This document shows, one piece after another, positions 4,082-64,000 of a stretch of 64,000 bases of DNA (its first letter is position 1; each line of letters begins with the position of its first letter). The notes under the pieces were generated by a model that did no database searches, was not told the origin of the DNA, and saw nothing but the letters and a program-made list of their open reading frames with translations. Origin of the DNA: Deltaproteobacteria bacterium. GTDB taxonomy: Bacteria; Myxococcota_A; UBA796; GCA-2862545. The translations under genes were made by a program, and so were the position numbers. The stretch spans positions 124,001 to 188,000 of the forward strand of contig REDI01000043.1 of the NCBI GenBank assembly GCA_007693595.1. Reading direction: 5' to 3'.

Positions 4082-5137
4082 TCATCGGCTCGTCACGAGC
4101 TGTGCTCGCTGCTCCGCCAGACCGAACGAGAGCAGGACCGGGATGTCGCTGGCTTGCAGGGCGTGCCAAGTCTGAGGGTCACGGGCTCCGCGCCAGCCCT
4201 CTCGCTGCAAGGCGGCGGCGGTAGGCGCGCCCAGGCTGTTGCCCGGTCCCAGGACGATCACCACCTCGGGCCCACAGTAGTTCAGGGCGGTCCGCAACCC
4301 CTCGACGTAGCCGTAGGTCTGGGTGACCTGGGTGCTTAGGGTGTAGTGGTGGATCGCTCGAGGGTCCGCCCACCGAGGGCGGTAGATGGTGCCGTGTCCG
4401 TCGATAAGGGGCAGCCTTGGCGCTGTGAAGCGCAGGCTCGCGAGCTCTCGTAGGGCGCGGGCCGCGACCTCGTTCATGAGCGGTGTATGGAAGGCGGCGT
4501 GCATCGGGAGGCGAAGCGGGAAGGTGCGGGCGCCACGATCCTGTCTCTGGAGATTCTCTAAAAGGTAGGTCAGTCCTCGTTCATCCGCCCCCAAGACGGC
4601 ATGGGTGCCGAGATCGATCGACCACCACGCCCGCCCCCCGGCCTCGTGCGCGCCGCGCAGGACGTCTTGCACATGACGGTGGAGCTTGGACAAGGACCGG
4701 CCGTCGGTGTCGTGAAGGGGGTAAAGGATCTGCCCACCGAATAGGGCCTCGGCTTGGTATCCTCCCATGGTCTCGATTAGGGCGAGGGCATCCTCGAGGG
4801 GTAAGGCGCCAGACAGGGCCAGGGCGCTGTACCAGCCCATCGAGTTGCCACAGACTCCGACGATCTCGAAGCGCTCTTGATCGATCTCGGCGTAGTCACA
4901 CAGGCTGCACGCCGCTGTGAGAAGCGATGCGTGCTCCCCCGCGAGGTGCAGGCTCGCGCGAAAGCTGGGAGCATCGTCGAGCTCGTGTAGATCGGGGCGC
5001 CCCGATCGCTGGCGCACGTGGGCGCACGCCGACAGGATCTCGGAACAGCCGGGGCCCCGATCGCGGAGGTAGCCCAGGCTGTGCTTCCCATAGGAGCCTC
5101 GACCTGGCACGACGACCAGCGCGCGGACTCGACTCAT
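4082..5137 (-). CDS. Malonyl/acyl-CoA:ACP transacylase-like protein
   Basis: 351 residues. The fold signature of FabD-type acyltransferases is visible: a nucleophile motif GNSMGW at 97-102 (Ser99) and a later FHTPLM at 216-221 whose His217 fits the catalytic dyad. FabD enzymes normally have GHSxGE; here the His before the Ser is Asn and the Glu after the Gly is Trp. The acyl substrate may therefore differ from malonyl. It overlaps the dehydrogenase upstream and the HD gene downstream by ATGA, so all three are probably coexpressed. The dehydrogenase makes acyl-CoAs, so a role in transferring a branched or unusual acyl starter is possible but unproven. Confidence 0.75.
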   Translation of the reverse strand: MSRVRALVVVPGRGSYGKHSLGYLRDRGPGCSEILSACAHVRQRSGRPDLHELDDAPSFRASLHLAGEHASLLTAACSLCDYAEIDQERFEIVGVCGNSMGWYSALALSGALPLEDALALIETMGGYQAEALFGGQILYPLHDTDGRSLSKLHRHVQDVLRGAHEAGGRAWWSIDLGTHAVLGADERGLTYLLENLQRQDRGARTFPLRLPMHAAFHTPLMNEVAARALRELASLRFTAPRLPLIDGHGTIYRPRWADPRAIHHYTLSTQVTQTYGYVEGLRTALNYCGPEVVIVLGPGNSLGAPTAAALQREGWRGARDPQTWHALQASDIPVLLSFGLAEQRAQLVTSR

Positions 5138-7353
5138 GGGGCCTCCAGGAGCTCGATGGCAGCGGCCTCGATCTCAGCCTCGCTCACCAAGACGTGATCG
5201 GCGGCTCCTCCGAGCGGGATGTAGGTGTCGGGTGCGGTGACCCGACGGGTGCGGACCTTGCCGGGCAGTCGCTCTTGCAGGTGGGCTGCGAGGGTGTCGG
5301 CCACCCCCGACGACGCGCGGCACTCATCGACGATGAGGACCTTGCCGCACGCCTCGGCATGGGGCTCGAGGGCGCGAAGGGGGAGCGGCAGGAGCCAGCG
5401 CAGATCCAGCACGCGGCACGAGATCCCGCGCGCGCGCAGGCGATGCGCGACCCGCTCGCTCATGTACCGGCCGTTGGCGTAGCTGATCAGGCAGAGATCC
5501 TGGCCGTCTCCGTGGACACCCACCTCGTCGATCGGCAGATTCTCCTGTGGGGGAGGGTAGGTGGTGAGCCAACCGCCGTCGCCCTCTTCGTAGCGGTCCT
5601 TGGTGTGGTAGAGCGCGATGGGCTCCAGCATGACGCAGACCCGTCCGCAGGCTGAGGCGGCGCCGACCATCGTGCGCAGCATCCGGGCAGCGTCCGCGCC
5701 GGTCGACGGGCAGCCCAAGAGGATCCCTGGGATCTCGCGCAGGGCGGCGATCCCGTTGTCGTTGTGGAAGTGGCCTCCGAAGCCTCGCTGGTAGGCCAGG
5801 CCGGCGATCCGCACCACCATGGGGTTGCTGAACTGCCCTTGACTGAAGAACTGGAGGGACGCGGCTTCACCCCGGAGCTGATCGACCGCGTTCATGAGAT
5901 AGGCGAGGTACTGGATCTCGGCGATGGGAAGCATCCCAGCCATCGCCGCACCCTGGGCCAGACCCAAGATGCTGGTCTCGTCGAGCAAGGTGTTGAAGAC
6001 CCTCCCTACCCCGAAGGCCTTGGTCAGCCCGGCGGTTACATGGTAGACCCCCCCTTTTCTGGCGACGTCCTCGCCGAAGACCAGGGTGCGTGGCTCGGCT
6101 AAGAGGATGTCGTGCAGGGCTCGATTGAGCTGAAAGGCCAAGGGGCGAGGGCGGTCGCTCTCCTCGGGAAGCGGCTCGCCGAAGAGCTGTCGCCGGGCCT
6201 CGGGCGAGCCCACCGGGATCGCGCGGGCGATGGCCTCGCGGTCGTGGACGAACAGGGGCCTCATCACCTCAGCGCGGCTGCGCAGCCGCGGCCGTCGCGT
6301 CGCCTCTTCGGCCAGGGCCGAGAGGCGCTCTCGGGTGGTCTGGTAGTGGTCGAGGACCTCTTTTGGAGTGAGATAGCCCTGCTCGACGAGCAAGGTCGCG
6401 GTGGCGATCAGTGGATCGGTGGCTTCGGAAGACTCGATCTCGGCTTGACTACGGTAGAGCTGCTCGACGTCCGATCCGGCGTGTCCGAGCAGCCGTACCG
6501 TGCGGAGGTGCAGCACGGCGGGGGAGCGCCGCTGTCGTACCCACTGGACCGCGCGTCGCGCGTTGTCGTAGGCATCGGGAAGGTCGAGGCCGTCTCCAGA
6601 GAAGTAGCGCAGACCGGGTCGCTGCCGAAGGGCGGCCTCGATCCAGCCATCGGGCGTGCGTACGGAGATCCCCAGGCCGTTGTCTTCGCACACGAAGAGC
6701 ACCGGGCAGGGGAGCCGCTGCCAGGTGGTCCAGCCCGCCGCGTTGAAGGCGGTCGTCGCGGTGGCGTGGTTGGCCGACGCGTCGCCGAAGGTGCAGATCA
6801 CGATGCGTTCTTCAGTCCGCCCCTCGCGGCGCGCTCTGCGGTCGAGGGTGAGGGCGTAGCCCACCGCCTTGGGCAGATGCGAGGCGATCGTCGAGGTCTG
6901 CGGAGGGATCGCAAGCGGCACGGAGCCGAAGACCTTGTGTCTTCCCCCCGAGATGGGCTCATCAGCCGTGGCGCAACACCCGCGGAGCACGTCGAAGGCA
7001 CCAGCGGGCCCCGGCACTTGCTGGGCACGGGCGAGGAAGAAGGGCCCGGACCGATAGTGGAGCAGGGCTGGATCGCTCGGCCTTGCTGCGGCCGCGACCG
7101 CCGCGTTGCCCTCGTGTCCAGAGCTTCCGATCGTGTAAAAGCTCTGGCCGCGAGTCTTGAGCTCCCGGGCGAGGAGATCGAGCAGGCGGCTCTCGAGCTG
7201 AGCGTCGAACAAGGCGAGGGCCTGCCGCCCGCTGAGTCCCGAGCCCGGACGGACGGGCCCATCGAGATCGCCGCGTCGATCGGCGGGTCGGCGTAGCTGC
7301 CGCACGACCTCTTTGAATCGTGCGTCGACGATCGTGGCGCGCGAGACGGCCAT
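5134..7353 (-). CDS. Fused E1 alpha/beta 2-oxo acid dehydrogenase (branched-chain type)
   Basis: 739 residues. The N-terminal half is the E1 alpha subunit with a thiamine-diphosphate motif GDASANH (190-196) ... EDNGLGIS (223-230). From about residue 400 (AFQLNRALHDILLAEP, FGEDVARKGGVY) it is E1 beta, ending with the transketolase C-terminal domain (SYANGRYMSERVAHRL, VLIVDECRASSG). Such enzymes decarboxylate 2-oxo acids and pass the acyl group to a lipoyl E2; the resemblance is closest to branched-chain or generic 2-oxo acid E1. Fused E1 subunits are known in several phyla. No E2 or E3 gene lies in this window. GGAG precedes the ATG. Confidence 0.9.
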   Translation of the reverse strand: MAVSRATIVDARFKEVVRQLRRPADRRGDLDGPVRPGSGLSGRQALALFDAQLESRLLDLLARELKTRGQSFYTIGSSGHEGNAAVAAAARPSDPALLHYRSGPFFLARAQQVPGPAGAFDVLRGCCATADEPISGGRHKVFGSVPLAIPPQTSTIASHLPKAVGYALTLDRRARREGRTEERIVICTFGDASANHATATTAFNAAGWTTWQRLPCPVLFVCEDNGLGISVRTPDGWIEAALRQRPGLRYFSGDGLDLPDAYDNARRAVQWVRQRRSPAVLHLRTVRLLGHAGSDVEQLYRSQAEIESSEATDPLIATATLLVEQGYLTPKEVLDHYQTTRERLSALAEEATRRPRLRSRAEVMRPLFVHDREAIARAIPVGSPEARRQLFGEPLPEESDRPRPLAFQLNRALHDILLAEPRTLVFGEDVARKGGVYHVTAGLTKAFGVGRVFNTLLDETSILGLAQGAAMAGMLPIAEIQYLAYLMNAVDQLRGEAASLQFFSQGQFSNPMVVRIAGLAYQRGFGGHFHNDNGIAALREIPGILLGCPSTGADAARMLRTMVGAASACGRVCVMLEPIALYHTKDRYEEGDGGWLTTYPPPQENLPIDEVGVHGDGQDLCLISYANGRYMSERVAHRLRARGISCRVLDLRWLLPLPLRALEPHAEACGKVLIVDECRASSGVADTLAAHLQERLPGKVRTRRVTAPDTYIPLGGAADHVLVSEAEIEAAAIELLEAP

Positions 7354-57442: not shown

Positions 57443-57739
57443 ATGCGTCTGGATCCCATCTCGGCAGCCATCGGGTTGCTCGGCTTGGCCCTACTCGGCC
57501 TGACATCGGGCTGTGCCGATCCCGTCCCGCCCGAAGTGGCGACATGCAACGCCTTGTGCGGCGAGCTCTTCACCGAGTGCCAATACCGAGCCTTCCCCAC
57601 AATGGAGTCCTGTCTCGATGGTTGCGGGTATTATGAGTCTCGGGGCGTCGACATCGAGTCCCACCGCGCCTGCGTCGAAGAAGCTGCTTGCGACACCTTT
57701 GCCATTGTGGAGTGCGAGAATGCACATGCCCCTCGATAG
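57443..57739 (+). CDS. Small Cys-rich lipoprotein
   Basis: 98 residues. Signal and lipobox LTSGC (Cys24). The mature about 75 residues carry paired cysteines (CNALCGELFTEC, SCLDGCGYY, ACVEEAACDTF, VECEN) in a helical, disulfide-stapled pattern seen in many secreted myxobacterial-type lipoproteins. The 3' end overlaps the following lipoprotein gene by about 20 bases in another frame, implying coupled translation. Confidence 0.82.
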   Translation: MRLDPISAAIGLLGLALLGLTSGCADPVPPEVATCNALCGELFTECQYRAFPTMESCLDGCGYYESRGVDIESHRACVEEAACDTFAIVECENAHAPR

Positions 57740-58853
57740 ATTCGTTCTTGGCGCCGCGGTGGCGGGCTTGGTCACCCTCACCATCGGCTGCCAGCAAGAG
57801 TACGGCCTCACGGGTCAAGCGCCGAATGTTCACCCCGACGACGTGACCGACTGCGGCTTCACCCCGATCTCGGGCACCAAGCTCTCGCGCTACGACTGCA
57901 ACCCCGTCTTCTCGGGAACGGACGAAGGGTGGGGATCTGGAGTTGGCTCCGTCGGTTTCCACGCCACCGAGGTCTTGGGGCACCCCTTCTATCAGATGTG
58001 GTACACCTCCCGCCCCGAAGGCGCGGGCTACGGCGAGTGGGCCCTTGGCTACGCCATCTCAGCCGAAGGCACCGACTGGCAAGCGCATGCTCAGAACCCC
58101 CTGATCCAGGCTCAGCCCGGCCAGTGGGACGAGGACTCCTTCGCGGGTCCGGTCGTCGTCTGGGATCCGCAGATCGACCAGTACGTCATGGCCTACCAAG
58201 GCTTCACCCTCGGACCCTCCGGTGTCTGGGGCCTGGGCATCGCCACCTCACCCAACGGGGTGAGCTGGTCCAAGCACCCGGGCAACCCCGTGGTGGACTT
58301 CGGCGACTTTGGCATGGACTTCTCTCCCTGCTGGCCGCTCACCATCACCCTGTCTGGCGGCGGCTACCGCGGCTACATCACCGCCGACGAGACCGACTTC
58401 CTCGACGAGCTCTTCGGGGCTGAGCCAAGCTGCAATATCTACGCGATGTCTGCGGTCGATCTTGGGGCATGGACGCTCGGGAGCCACCCGATCCTCGAAG
58501 GGGAACACTGGTACGAGGAGCGGGGGTTCACCAATGCCGCGGTGGTTGAGTTTGAAGGGGTAGAATACATGTTCTACCTCGGCTTCGAAGAGTGGGTCCG
58601 CGGCGATCAGGTCCTGAGCGCGGTCAACACCAACTTCGCGCTGGCCACCTCGGTCGATGGCGGGCACACCTGGCACAAGGATCCGGGCAACCCCTTCCCG
58701 GTGAACCTGACCAGTCCTGGGCGTCTGAGCGCGATCGGGGCGCAGGTCGTCGGGGAGCGGATCCACCTCTGGATCACCGATCACTACGAAGAGCTGGGTC
58801 GCTCCGCCGTGGGCTACTTCCTCTACGAGCCCAACATCGACGATCACCCCTGA
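57720..58853 (+). CDS. Lipoprotein with GH43/GH32-like five-bladed propeller
   Basis: 377 residues. Lipobox TIGC (Cys24 by the start used). Repeated blades of the furanosidase-like type: YQMWYTSRPEG, WALGYAISAEGTDWQAHAQN, WGLGIATSPNGVSWSKHPGN, NFALATSVDGGHTWHKDPGN. Fold relatives hydrolyse or bind glycans, but obvious catalytic carboxylates cannot be assigned by eye. ATG at 57720 lies inside the preceding gene; a second ATG at 57726 is possible. Confidence 0.85.
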   Translation: MHMPLDRFVLGAAVAGLVTLTIGCQQEYGLTGQAPNVHPDDVTDCGFTPISGTKLSRYDCNPVFSGTDEGWGSGVGSVGFHATEVLGHPFYQMWYTSRPEGAGYGEWALGYAISAEGTDWQAHAQNPLIQAQPGQWDEDSFAGPVVVWDPQIDQYVMAYQGFTLGPSGVWGLGIATSPNGVSWSKHPGNPVVDFGDFGMDFSPCWPLTITLSGGGYRGYITADETDFLDELFGAEPSCNIYAMSAVDLGAWTLGSHPILEGEHWYEERGFTNAAVVEFEGVEYMFYLGFEEWVRGDQVLSAVNTNFALATSVDGGHTWHKDPGNPFPVNLTSPGRLSAIGAQVVGERIHLWITDHYEELGRSAVGYFLYEPNIDDHP

Positions 58854-58931: not shown

Positions 58932-60116
58932 TCAGACTTGGTAGGGCGCGGCGTGGTAGAGCCGCTCGCTGATGTGGATCAGGCTCGGCATGTCATTGGC
59001 GCCGCCCGGCACGGTTGGGGTCGCCAAGGCGAAGCCGCTGTCGCCAGATTCTTCGGCGAGGGTGGCGAGCAGGTGGATGTCGCGCTCCATTTCGGAGCGC
59101 TCGACCTCGGCGAGCACCTGAAGCTTCTTGAGGGCGCTGCGCGCGACCGCGGTGGGCTCGGGTCCCAGCAGCTCGGTCGCGGGAAAAGTACGGTCGCCCG
59201 CGAGAGCCTGGCTGCGGTTCAAGACGAAGCCAGCGAAGGGAAGCCCCATCTCGCGGGTACGGTCGCGGAAGAAGTGCGCGTCGGAGACCGAGGCATCGGT
59301 GGGGGAGGTGACGAGCAAAAAACCGACGTCGTCGGGGTTACCCAGCAGCTCGATCATGCTGCCTGCGTTCTTGTTCAGCGTGGTAAGGATGCCCGAGAAA
59401 GACTGGAAAAACTCCTGAATATCACGGTAGGACTCTTCGCCGAAGACCATGGAGTTGACCCGATCGATCACCGCGCCCGCCGTGCGGCGGAAGAACCCGC
59501 CGCCACCCTCGCCGGCTGGGACGAAGAGCTGGAAGATCCGTCCATCGAGGAAGTTCGCCATGCGCTGTGGACCCTCGAGGAAGGCCAGCGCGTTGCGGGA
59601 CGGCGGCGTGTCGAGCACAACCAGATCGTACTTTCCTTCGAGGTGGAACTCGTGCAGGGCCTCCATGGCCATGTATTCCTGCATGCCCGCGACCATGCGC
59701 GAGAGGCCCTTGTAGATCCGGTTGTTCATGAGGCGCTCGATCTGCTCGGGATCCTTGGCGAGCTTGTGAACCACCCGGTCCGCGACGAGCTTGGGATCGA
59801 GCATCCAGGCATCGAGAGAGCCGGGGGGCTCGATACCGGCCTCGGCGAGGCGCTCGGGAGAGATCGAGACCGGGGTGTCGAGGTTGCGGTCGACGCCGAG
59901 GGTCTGGGCCAGGCGTCGGGAGGGATCGACGGTGAGGGCGAGCACTCGTCGCCCCTTGCGAGCGGCCGCGAGGGCCAAAGCGGTCGAGGTGGTGGTCTTG
60001 CCGACGCCGCCGGCACCACACACCACCAGGATCTTGCGGTGCAGGATCAGCTCCGCGATGGGTTGATCGGCGGCGCTCGGGGGAGTGTGCGCGGGAGCGG
60101 TCGTGTCGTCGCTCAT
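58932..60116 (-). CDS. Get3/ArsA-like ATPase, P-loop with substituted signature lysine
   Basis: 394 residues. P-loop GAGGVGKTT at 34-42: the second residue, Lys in deviant Walker A motifs of this family, is Ala35, while the P-loop Lys40 is kept. Switch-I-like TVDPSRRLAQTLGVD and switch-II-like VVLDTPPSRNALAF follow. The long helical segment 115-240 could form the client groove. Family members target tail-anchored proteins or pump oxyanions; no arsenite-binding Cys triad is visible. Overlaps the partner ATPase by ATGA. Confidence 0.9.
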   Translation of the reverse strand: MSDDTTAPAHTPPSAADQPIAELILHRKILVVCGAGGVGKTTTSTALALAAARKGRRVLALTVDPSRRLAQTLGVDRNLDTPVSISPERLAEAGIEPPGSLDAWMLDPKLVADRVVHKLAKDPEQIERLMNNRIYKGLSRMVAGMQEYMAMEALHEFHLEGKYDLVVLDTPPSRNALAFLEGPQRMANFLDGRIFQLFVPAGEGGGGFFRRTAGAVIDRVNSMVFGEESYRDIQEFFQSFSGILTTLNKNAGSMIELLGNPDDVGFLLVTSPTDASVSDAHFFRDRTREMGLPFAGFVLNRSQALAGDRTFPATELLGPEPTAVARSALKKLQVLAEVERSEMERDIHLLATLAEESGDSGFALATPTVPGGANDMPSLIHISERLYHAAPYQV

Positions 60117-61042
60117 TCGACGTCTCCAGAGTCATTGGAGGAGGCGAGCACGGCATCGGACAAGCCGTGGATCAGGCCGGGACCTTCGGTAGAGAGCTCG
60201 GGCAGCCGCCAGATCGGGGTGCCGGTGGACTCGCGCAGATGACGCAGGGAGCGCTCGACCATTCCGATGCCGAGAAAGCGGGTGGCCCCGAATAGATCGT
60301 GGTCGTTGACCAGGGGATCGAGGACGTCGCGCTCCGCTTCGGTGAACTCGTCGCCCACCACCTTGTTGACGATCACCCCACCGATGGGCATGTCGGTCTC
60401 GCGAAGGCCTTCGAGCAGCTCCAGGCACTCGGTCACGGGCAGGGTCTCGGGGAGGGTGACGACGAGCATCGCAGAATCTTCGGGGTCGAAGAAGACGTCT
60501 TTGCCCTCGTGGATGGCTCGGGCGATGGGGCCGTTGGGGAGGATCTGCAAGACGCGGTCGGGCAGGGTGGCCAGGCCGAGGGCATGGCCCGTGGCGGGAA
60601 GATCGATGATGATCAGGTCCCAGGCTGGACCTCCGCTCGGGCTCTCGGCCCGAGCCAGGGTGAGCATATGGTAGAACACCCCCAGCTCGTTGAGAGAGGG
60701 GGCGGCGTCGAGCATGCGGCGCAAGGCGCTTGATCGCAGCGCGGCGCGGACCAGGGCTGCGATGGGTAAGACCACGCTGATGAAGCGCTCGTGCCCCTTG
60801 CGCGACCAGAGCATGACGCCGTCGATGTTGCGCGCCAGGGGTACCGGATCGGCTGACAGGGTCTTGCGGCCGAACAGTCGCCCGAGGGCGGCGAGGTCTT
60901 CTTCGGGTTCGCCCATCTCGGCGATAAGGACGCGCTTGCCGCTGCGGGCGGCCGCCATGGCGAGTGCGGCGGTGGCGGTGGTGCGCCCGACACCACCCTT
61001 TCCGGTGATGAGCAGGGCGCGCTTTTCGAAGAGCTCTTTCAC
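60113..61042 (-). CDS. Get3/ArsA-like ATPase partner, P-loop Lys replaced by Arg
   Basis: 309 residues. P-loop GKGGVGRTT at 14-22: signature Lys15 is kept, but the core P-loop Lys is Arg20 (codon CGC). The switch-I Asp-Pro of the family is replaced by AEMGEPEEDL, while switch II (LIIIDLPATGHALGL) is conserved. It is therefore likely a poor ATPase on its own and a good candidate to form a heterodimer with the overlapping neighbour. ATG preceded by GGGATCCC-type sequence; start is consistent with family. Confidence 0.9.
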   Translation of the reverse strand: MKELFEKRALLITGKGGVGRTTATAALAMAAARSGKRVLIAEMGEPEEDLAALGRLFGRKTLSADPVPLARNIDGVMLWSRKGHERFISVVLPIAALVRAALRSSALRRMLDAAPSLNELGVFYHMLTLARAESPSGGPAWDLIIIDLPATGHALGLATLPDRVLQILPNGPIARAIHEGKDVFFDPEDSAMLVVTLPETLPVTECLELLEGLRETDMPIGGVIVNKVVGDEFTEAERDVLDPLVNDHDLFGATRFLGIGMVERSLRHLRESTGTPIWRLPELSTEGPGLIHGLSDAVLASSNDSGDVE

Positions 61043-61235: not shown

Positions 61236-63179
61236 TCAAGCCTGTACGAGGCGTTCCGCGAGGCGACTGCTCCGCTCGATGCGGCGCCGGAGCGCGGCCT
61301 CGAGGACTTCGGCGGAGCCCACGAGGGTGAGCTTCAGGCGCGCTCGGGTGAGTCCTGTGTAGATGAGCTCGCGACTGAGCAGGGGCGAGGGCTGACTCGG
61401 CAGCACGATCACGGTGTGGCGGAACTGGCTGCCCTGACTCTTGTGGATGGTCATGGCGAGGACCCGGCTGTGAGCGGGGAGCTGGGCTGCGGGGAGCATG
61501 CGCGGCCCCTCCGCGCTCAGGAAGGCGACCACGGGTCCATCCGATCCACGAAGTACGACGCCGACATCCCCGTTCATCAGATCGAGATCGTAGCGATTCT
61601 CAGTGATGATCACAGGCAAGCCCGGCACGAGGGTCGCGCTCAGGTCGAGCGGGAGCTGGGTGCTGAGTTGGCGGACGAGGGCTTGATTGAGCCCCGACAC
61701 CCCGCGCGGGCCGCGCCGGTGAGCACAGAGGATGCGCACGTCTTCGAAGGCGCGAACGATCGGCTCGACCGCCTCTCCGGGGCGCCATGCCAGGGCGGCC
61801 TGGATGGCGGGCCGCCAGACCTGGGCCAAGGCCTTCAGCGTGCGGGGTGATGGAGCGTCGCCAGGATCGGCGAGGTGGTGTAGATCGTCAAAGCGCGCAT
61901 GGACCTCGCCAGACGTTAGGATCGCCAGCGCGTCCGCGAGGCCTTCCTCGTCTCCACGGCTGATCGCCTGGGCTGCGACGCCGATCCCTGAGTCGGAGCC
62001 GAAGCGGAAGGGGGTGTCGTAGCGCACCACGCAGCTGCCCAAGGGGATGGGCTCGGATCGGGGCCTGGTCTGGATGTGAAGGGTGCGCTCGGGTCGGTGG
62101 GGATCGACGCGGGTGGCGAAGACTTCGGGATCGAGAGCGAGCACAGCCGTCAGCTCCTCGTCGGTGAGCGCGGGACCACCGTGCACGGTGAGGTCAGCGA
62201 ACACGCTGCCCGCCTCGACGCTGGCGAGCTGGTTGCGGTCGCCGAGCAGGATCAAGCGGGAGCTGGATCGCAGGGCCAGGAGCAGACGGCACATCATGGG
62301 CAGGTCGACCATGGAGGCTTCGTCGACGACGACCACGTCGTGCGGCAGCGGGTTGCGCGCGTGGTGGCGGAAGCGGGTGGTGTTGGACGGGTTGAAGCCC
62401 AGCAGCCGGTGCAGCGTGGTGGGCTGGAGCCCCTTGAGCCAGTCGCGCTCAGAAGGGGTGAAGCCCTGATCGAGGCCTTCACGCACCGCCTCGGCCATCC
62501 GCACCGCCGCCTTGCCCGTAGGCGCCGCGAGCGCGACCCGCGGAGGCTCGTCGGCTAGGTGGTGCAGCAGCGCCAGGGTGCGCTTGAGGGTGTAGGTCTT
62601 TCCGGTTCCGGGCCCTCCCGCGATCAGGGTGAGCCTGCGCCGCACCGCGACGAGCGCCCCGAGCCGCTGGAGCGGATCGGCCGTTGAGAAGAGCCTCTCG
62701 ACCACCTCAAGCGTCTCTTGGAGCGCGTCTGGCAGGGGGTCGAGGGGGGCGCGAGCCCGCGTGCGCAGGGCGGTGGCGAGGCGGTCTTGGTAGGTCCAGT
62801 AGCGTCGGCTGTGGAGCAGGCCCTCCCAGAGTACGAAGGGGCGCTCGGGCTGATCGAGGGTCGTATCGACGGCCGGACTCGCCGCGACCTTCGCGAGCCA
62901 GGCCTCGGGCTCGGGCCAGGACAGCTCGGGGGAGGAGGTGTCGCCGGTGCGGGCTGCCCGATCGATGGCCGTTTGGCTCACCGAACGCAGATCCACCCCC
63001 ACATGGCCGAAGCGAGGCGCGCGAACGGCGAAAGCGAGCCCGGTCTGGACCAGGGGGTCGTGCTCGCCGAGCAGCGGCGCGATGAGGGCGACGGTGTAGA
63101 GATCGGCCGCGTCAAGGACGTCGGCCTGAACGAAGGGTCCGGTGAGCTCGCGCAGCGGAGCGGGGAGGATGGCGCTCAT
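61236..63179 (-). CDS. recD: RecD subunit of exodeoxyribonuclease V
   Basis: 647 residues. SF1B helicase motifs: I GGPGTGKTYT, Ia ALAAPTGKAAVRMAEAV, II VVVVDEASMVDLPMM, III LGDRNQLASVEAG, then VLAMTIHKSQGSQF near the C-terminus and IYTGLTRAR. The N-terminal domain and overall length match RecD. It acts as the 5'-3' motor of RecBCD in double-strand break repair. The ATG overlaps the recB stop by ATGA; recB lies upstream. Confidence 0.95.
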   Translation of the reverse strand: MSAILPAPLRELTGPFVQADVLDAADLYTVALIAPLLGEHDPLVQTGLAFAVRAPRFGHVGVDLRSVSQTAIDRAARTGDTSSPELSWPEPEAWLAKVAASPAVDTTLDQPERPFVLWEGLLHSRRYWTYQDRLATALRTRARAPLDPLPDALQETLEVVERLFSTADPLQRLGALVAVRRRLTLIAGGPGTGKTYTLKRTLALLHHLADEPPRVALAAPTGKAAVRMAEAVREGLDQGFTPSERDWLKGLQPTTLHRLLGFNPSNTTRFRHHARNPLPHDVVVVDEASMVDLPMMCRLLLALRSSSRLILLGDRNQLASVEAGSVFADLTVHGGPALTDEELTAVLALDPEVFATRVDPHRPERTLHIQTRPRSEPIPLGSCVVRYDTPFRFGSDSGIGVAAQAISRGDEEGLADALAILTSGEVHARFDDLHHLADPGDAPSPRTLKALAQVWRPAIQAALAWRPGEAVEPIVRAFEDVRILCAHRRGPRGVSGLNQALVRQLSTQLPLDLSATLVPGLPVIITENRYDLDLMNGDVGVVLRGSDGPVVAFLSAEGPRMLPAAQLPAHSRVLAMTIHKSQGSQFRHTVIVLPSQPSPLLSRELIYTGLTRARLKLTLVGSAEVLEAALRRRIERSSRLAERLVQA

Positions 63180-64000
63180 GGAGCCCCCTCGTCGAGTAGG
63201 TCGGAGAGGTCGTGGATGACCTGGGCGGGGGGCGTATAGGCGAAGACGCCCGCGCCGGGCTCGCCGTTCATGCCCCGGATGAAGAGATAGGCGGCTCCTA
63301 GAACATGGGTCGAGTAGTGGTAGCGCGAACCGAGGCGGTAGCGCAGGAAGCGGTGCAGCCCCGTGAGGTAGAGGCTGGCCTGGAGGAGGTAGTGGTGCTC
63401 GACCATGGCGCCCGCCAAGCGCTCCGGGCGGTAGTCTCGCTGGGTCGACGCGCCGGTGGGGGCCCCTCGGTAGGGCGATCCCAGGCGGTTGGACTTATAG
63501 TCGGCGACGATCCAGCGCGGACCGTCGGGGGTGGTGATCCGCGCCGTGAGGTCGAGGCTCCCGGTGAGGAAGCCGGCGACCACCTCCCGCTGCATCGATG
63601 CGAGGCTCTGAATCCAGGCCTCGCCTTCGGGGAGGTCCTGCACGGCGGGGGCCAGGACCTCTGCCAGGGCAGCCCCGGTGAGACCCCGCTGCCCCTGCCA
63701 GCGGTACCCGCCGGCCACGGGGAGGTCGAACTCCAACTCATCGAGGCGGTCGTGGTGGGGGATGTCGCAGAGGCGTATCCCGTGAAAGGCAGGACCGAGG
63801 GGGGTCTGTAGGATCGAGGGCAGCGTGGCCTGCAAGGAAGCCAGGGCCGCTTCGTCGGTCAGGCCGAGTCGGGCGCCACACTGTTCGAGGAAGCTCGCGA
63901 GATCGGGCGCGCCGCTGCGAGGAAGGGGCTCGCCGGTGACGAAGTCGAGGTCCTCGAGCACACTGTGGATGGTAATCCCGGCCTCGCGGCCGCGGGGAAA
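63176..64000 (-). CDS. recB: RecB C-terminal nuclease domain (partial, runs off the window)
   Basis: Frame is open to the window edge; in-window residues start FPRGREAGITIHSVLEDLDF, which matches the FPRG...AG..LH...E block that opens the RecB nuclease domain. An internal GTG at 63961 is therefore not the start. Nuclease motifs GSLDLTARI, WIVADYKSNRLG and LLQASLYLTGLHRFLR (Asp, Asp-x-Lys, Gln/Tyr) are intact. Roughly the last 275 residues of a protein normally over 1000 are visible. Coupled to recD by ATGA. Confidence 0.95.
   Translation of the reverse strand, partial: FPRGREAGITIHSVLEDLDFVTGEPLPRSGAPDLASFLEQCGARLGLTDEAALASLQATLPSILQTPLGPAFHGIRLCDIPHHDRLDELEFDLPVAGGYRWQGQRGLTGAALAEVLAPAVQDLPEGEAWIQSLASMQREVVAGFLTGSLDLTARITTPDGPRWIVADYKSNRLGSPYRGAPTGASTQRDYRPERLAGAMVEHHYLLQASLYLTGLHRFLRYRLGSRYHYSTHVLGAAYLFIRGMNGEPGAGVFAYTPPAQVIHDLSDLLDEGAP

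Follow-up and report, generated by a model that had tools for sequence, protein, structure and literature searches.

An Overlapping Pair of Get3-Like Genes

The window, that is, the whole stretch of 64,000 nucleotides that was analyzed, carries on its minus strand two overlapping genes for Get3-like proteins, here called A and B. The pair and its neighbors are laid out as follows.

61236-63961, minus strand: RecD-like helicase gene, upstream of the pair (Pfam AAA_19, RecD_N)
60113..61042, minus strand: A gene (BagA-like), upstream member of the pair; 309 amino acids, GTG start at 61042
60977..61003, minus strand: P-loop of A, GKGGVGRTT; signature Lys kept (K15), core Lys replaced by Arg (R20)
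60113..60116, minus strand: ATGA holding the stop of A and the start of B, a 4-base overlap read in the sequence
58932..60116, minus strand: B gene (BagB-like), downstream member of the pair; 394 amino acids, ATG start at 60116
59991..60017, minus strand: P-loop of B, GAGGVGKTT; signature Lys replaced by Ala (A35), core Lys kept (K40)
59922..59927, minus strand: switch I of B, Asp64-Pro65; absent from A, invariant in 215 of 215 B proteins
57513-58853, plus strand: open reading frame of 446 amino acids converging on the pair, no Pfam match

An earlier note on this DNA had described both reading frames and both P-loops, with the signature lysine lost and the core lysine kept in the frame at 58932-60116 and the reverse in that at 60113-61042, and the letters and codons on the minus strand agree. 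The P-loop of A is encoded by ATC ACC GGA AAG GGT GGT GTC GGG CGC ACC ACC (ITGKGGVGRTT) and that of B by TGT GGT GCC GGC GGC GTC GGC AAG ACC ACC (CGAGGVGKTT). The note was also right that the genes overlap, but its numbering of first and second protein runs against transcription, in which the Arg-bearing protein A comes first and B follows. The ATGA overlap likely couples their translation. Turning the codon of R20 (CGC) or that of A35 (GCC) into a lysine codon takes two or more base changes, so one sequencing error would not account for either; such an origin is further ruled out by the recurrence of the arginine in many genomes, with a CGN codon in 35 of 36 Arg-bearing A proteins. The switch-I Asp-Pro is gone from A, as had been noted: its region reads ...LIAEMGEPEED..., in which an E-P sits one residue further on, and the same region of B reads ...LTVDPSRR. 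Both the adenine-binding Asn and the switch-II Asp are kept in the window's A.

Phenylalanyl-tRNA synthetase genes lie on the other side of the pair, and the locus also holds open reading frames without assignment. The RecD-like gene is preceded by a frame of 261 amino acids that has no Pfam match and by eye resembles the C-terminal nuclease of RecB. Inspection of these neighbors for a functional hint to the pair yielded none.

Relationship to BagA and BagB

Both proteins match Pfam ArsA_ATPase, in keeping with the Get3/ArsA-like identity first proposed for them. Among NCBIfam models the best for B is BagB (1.2e-74) and the best for A is BagA (2.8e-23), with scores that stay below the equivalog cut-offs (82.8 against 400 bits for BagA, NF053622; 251.6 against 521 bits for BagB, NF053621). 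The canonical Get3/TRC40/ArsA model TIGR00345, with a cut-off of 135, gives the two proteins 67.6 and 72.1 bits, and neither P-loop (GAGGVGKT, GKGGVGRT) fits the canonical GKGGxGK[ST] with both lysines in each subunit. When compared by sequence with solved structures, B is closest to chain B of 6bs3 (E 5.7e-57), and A matches chain A of the same entry, Rv3679 (7.9e-18), about as well as it matches ArsA1.

AlphaFold models of the single proteins (mean pLDDT 81.6 and 79.4) lead to the same chains. The top structural match of the A model (m7860697f1234) is 6bs3_A, with Z 26.9 and rmsd 4.6 over 289 aligned residues, followed by an archaeal Get3 at Z 25.6; that of the B model (m36f0f1e7b15a) is 6bs3_B, with Z 33.9 and rmsd 2.8 over 331 residues, the next match standing at Z 25.7. 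A and B thus each pick out their own chain in the BagA/BagB crystal structures (6bs3, 6bs4, 6bs5). The title of 6bs3 names bacterial Get3-like A and B from M. tuberculosis in the ADP-bound state, and the affinity to Rv3679/Rv3680 that had been suggested extends to the predicted folds.

The likeness to the M. tuberculosis pair is broad. Its genes are likewise adjacent, A then B, and its chains correspond one by one to those of the window in sequence and fold. Its B (6bs3_B, GAGGVGKT) also lacks the signature lysine and keeps Asp-Pro, and its A (6bs3_A, GKGGTGKS) also keeps the signature lysine without a switch-I Asp-Pro. Actinobacterial members are nonetheless only about 35% identical to the window pair in B and about 25% in A, and where the window's A has a core Arg, each of the 70 distinct A proteins sampled from Actinobacteria has Lys. 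With an adjacent Get3-fold pair, matching chains and the same division of residues between B and A, the window proteins are distant relatives of mycobacterial BagA and BagB and fit the BagA/BagB family in the broad sense.

Distribution of the Active-Site Residues

Of all P-loop residues, the core lysine usually varies least. In Get3, the nucleotide of a subunit is served by the core lysine and switch-I Asp of that subunit and by the signature lysine of the partner, which crosses the dimer to it (PMC10248533). These residues were surveyed across the window's phylum (160 A proteins from 145 genomes, 140 B proteins from 126 genomes) and the Actinobacteria (70 A and 75 B distinct proteins), each protein being assigned to A or B according to which of two profile HMMs scored it higher.

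The signature lysine is present in 230 of 230 A proteins and in none of the 215 B proteins, which carry Ser, Ala, Thr, Pro, Val, Cys, Leu, Asp, Asn or, once, Arg at that position. The core lysine and the switch-I Asp-Pro are both found in all 215 B proteins. Among A proteins of the phylum the core residue is Lys in 124 and Arg in 36, and the switch-I Asp is absent from 134 of 160 and present in 26; actinobacterial A proteins have a core Lys throughout (70 of 70) and Glu in place of the switch-I Asp. Every A and B surveyed keeps the switch-II Asp, the adenine-binding Asn is retained by 229 of 230 A and 210 of 215 B proteins, and A keeps the P-loop Ser/Thr. In each of 180 linked pairs, A has the signature lysine and B has the core lysine only. 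Because this split holds in every linked pair, whether or not the core lysine of A is normal, complementarity is a rule of the BagAB-type family; the sequences support well that it is general, at least across both phyla of the survey, and the census rules out a quirk of the source genome.

The complementarity of the lysines reported earlier therefore stands as a pattern, but not as one that rests on the Lys-to-Arg change, given that the losses of the signature lysine from B and of the switch-I Asp-Pro from A are family-wide. The strict form, K/R in A with x/K in B, occurs in 17 of 103 pairs of the phylum and in 0 of 77 actinobacterial pairs. No pair with both lysines in both proteins was found among the 180 linked BagAB-type pairs. 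Canonical tandem pairs keep everything: adjacent Get3/ArsA-like genes in three genomes (G060, G129, G187) have GKGGVGKT and a switch-I Asp in both members. Adjacency of Get3-like genes alone thus brings no division of residues, and the split is ruled out as a trait of such pairs generally.

Six B proteins of one family (f16; L286, L288, L289, L290, L292 and L293) have GDGGVGKT or GNGGVGKT and no adjacent A. The Asp at the signature position is an acidic residue that would not be expected near phosphates.

A Probable Composite Site in B

Homology, co-occurrence and the presence of both chains in 6bs3 suggest that A pairs with B. It is quite likely that the two form an asymmetric Get3-type heterodimer of the BagA/BagB kind, in which B is hydrolytic, the signature lysine of A completes the composite site of B, and the mirror site on A hydrolyzes little or nothing. 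B would supply the core P-loop Lys40, the switch-I Asp64 and the switch-II Asp169, and Lys15 of A would reach into this site, such that a nucleotide bound to B would meet the full set in one composite site. A nucleotide on A would find no trans lysine from B, no switch-I Asp and, in the source genome, no core lysine. The A site is therefore probably nucleotide-binding or structural, with little or no hydrolysis. The 26 of 160 A proteins of the phylum that still have the switch-I Asp, and the Glu of actinobacterial A proteins at that position, speak against this reading, as do the two genomes with B but no detected A. That the trans-acting signature lysine is invariant in A while the cis-acting core lysine is lax is the pattern that a composite site predicts, and hydrolysis at one site is what the distribution of residues points to.

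The complete composite site proposed earlier is consistent with the complementary retention of residues in all linked pairs, but the accompanying description of a dead site goes too far. Besides the adenine-binding Asn that A keeps, there is the case of NosGet3d, a slow ATPase (kcat 0.28/min) whose core residue is Arg and whose switch-I residue is Glu (PMC10248533). With its switch-II Asp and P-loop Ser/Thr also kept, A may bind nucleotide and could hydrolyze it slowly. These same observations favor an alternative in which both sites of the heterodimer work, the core Arg of A replacing Lys and another acidic residue replacing the switch-I Asp; the window's A places a Glu directly beside the missing Asp, and in actinobacterial A proteins Glu occupies that very position. 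This is unlikely, as the signature lysine of B is missing from the A site in all 215 cases, even where the core lysine of A is normal.

Co-occurrence and Genome Arrangement

Canonical ArsA hits, which occur in G129 and G187, were left out of the count. Of the 190 genomes of the phylum scored in this way, 170 carry A together with B and 17 carry no member of the pair; B stands alone in two (G113 and G137) and A in one (G060). A and B are thus together in 170 of the 173 genomes bearing either (Fisher 4e-21, a value that ignores relatedness). The G113 assembly is 82% complete. Some members of families f13, f16 and f17 lack A and B jointly, while other members have both. The B examined stands without a neighboring A in 34 genomes, of which 32 have an A elsewhere.

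These separated genes, together with the two genomes that have B without a detected A, are what could be expected if each protein formed homodimers, B being an ATPase independent of the signature lysine and A being inactive or regulatory. Such an arrangement is distinctly improbable: neither site of a B homodimer would contain a signature lysine, the M. tuberculosis pair was co-crystallized, and the near-constant co-occurrence also stands against it.

Where B lies away from A (L014, L018, L023, L030 and others), reading frames inspected by eye place a glmU-like gene directly after B in several loci and a hemC-like gene before it in some. Relatives of the pair also occur on plasmids, in three actinobacterial records.

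Recurrent Change of the Core Lysine in A

Of the two phyla covered, only the window's own has A proteins with the core arginine, and there eight family codes are represented among the Arg-bearing genomes. When the core residue is masked, a FastTree phylogeny requires at least eight swaps between Lys and Arg, against a mean of 33 for shuffled labels, so that the arginine is recurrent but heritable. The source genome has a second A-B pair (L009, G000:C61:33000-44000; 4757-5695 and 5692-6792, plus strand) that combines GKGGVGRTT with GTGGVGKTT. On the A tree the genome's two A proteins belong to different clades, both made up of Arg-bearing proteins. This repetition within one genome, along with the uniformity of the linked pairs, indicates that the pattern in the window is not due to chance. 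In raw counts, a residue other than Ser at the signature position of B accompanies Arg in A in 16 of 17 pairs as opposed to 36 of 86 (Fisher p 8e-5), but the tree holds only three independent pairs, so that a link is at most possible.

Judged from the sequences, the Lys-to-Arg change is repeated extra decay of an already defective A site. That A as a whole is a paralogue degenerating neutrally, its residues mechanistically meaningless, is highly improbable, for while the repeated core changes are such as relaxed constraint would give, the signature lysine, switch-II Asp and adenine-binding Asn of A are essentially invariant and A is retained alongside B in 170 genomes.

Comparison with Known Systems

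The prevailing picture of Get3 is that of a symmetric homodimer working with two ATPs. Eukaryotic and archaeal Get3/TRC40 proteins share with the window pair their fold (Z of about 20-26) and a deviant Walker A; they are homodimers in which every subunit has the complete set of two lysines and switch-I Asp, whereas the window pair divides this set between two proteins, and most BagAB-type members differ from them in having no CXXC motif. ArsA and the tandem canonical ArsA/Get3 pairs likewise consist of two Get3-like units, fused or adjacent, but both of their units have GKGGVGKT and the switch-I Asp. NosGet3d (All4481, 3igf/8egk) resembles the window's A in the change of the core Walker A lysine to Arg with the signature lysine kept, and is set apart for combining that signature lysine with a switch-I Glu, an alpha-crystallin domain and activity, albeit slow. 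Of the two composite ATP sites in asymmetric heterodimeric ABC exporters, one follows the consensus and the other is degenerate; the fold and mechanism of these exporters are unrelated to those of the window pair, and the likeness is one of analogy only.

Function and Significance

The phenotypes with which mycobacterial bagAB has been connected are tolerance of glycerol and nitric oxide, citrate killing and drug survival, in work that leaves its biochemical role unestablished (PMC10597346; PMC12216072). The BagAB papers reached by text search were all of this phenotype kind. By homology to Get3 and BagAB, the pair may serve as a membrane-linked chaperone for client proteins.

Extended to the whole BagAB-type family, the asymmetric reading is somewhat favored: the family would be an obligate asymmetric ATPase with its sole hydrolytic composite site in B, the A site would hold nucleotide without hydrolyzing it and would have lost its core lysine independently several times, and one nucleotide, not two, would control client binding. 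If this is true, a widespread bacterial branch whose catalytic residues are split over two subunits, with one site left complete, tells apart what each of the two nucleotides does and lends itself to a clean test, the signature lysine being removable from one subunit and the switch-I Asp from the other. The split would also provide a simple sequence rule to tell BagA-type from BagB-type partners where their genes are not adjacent.
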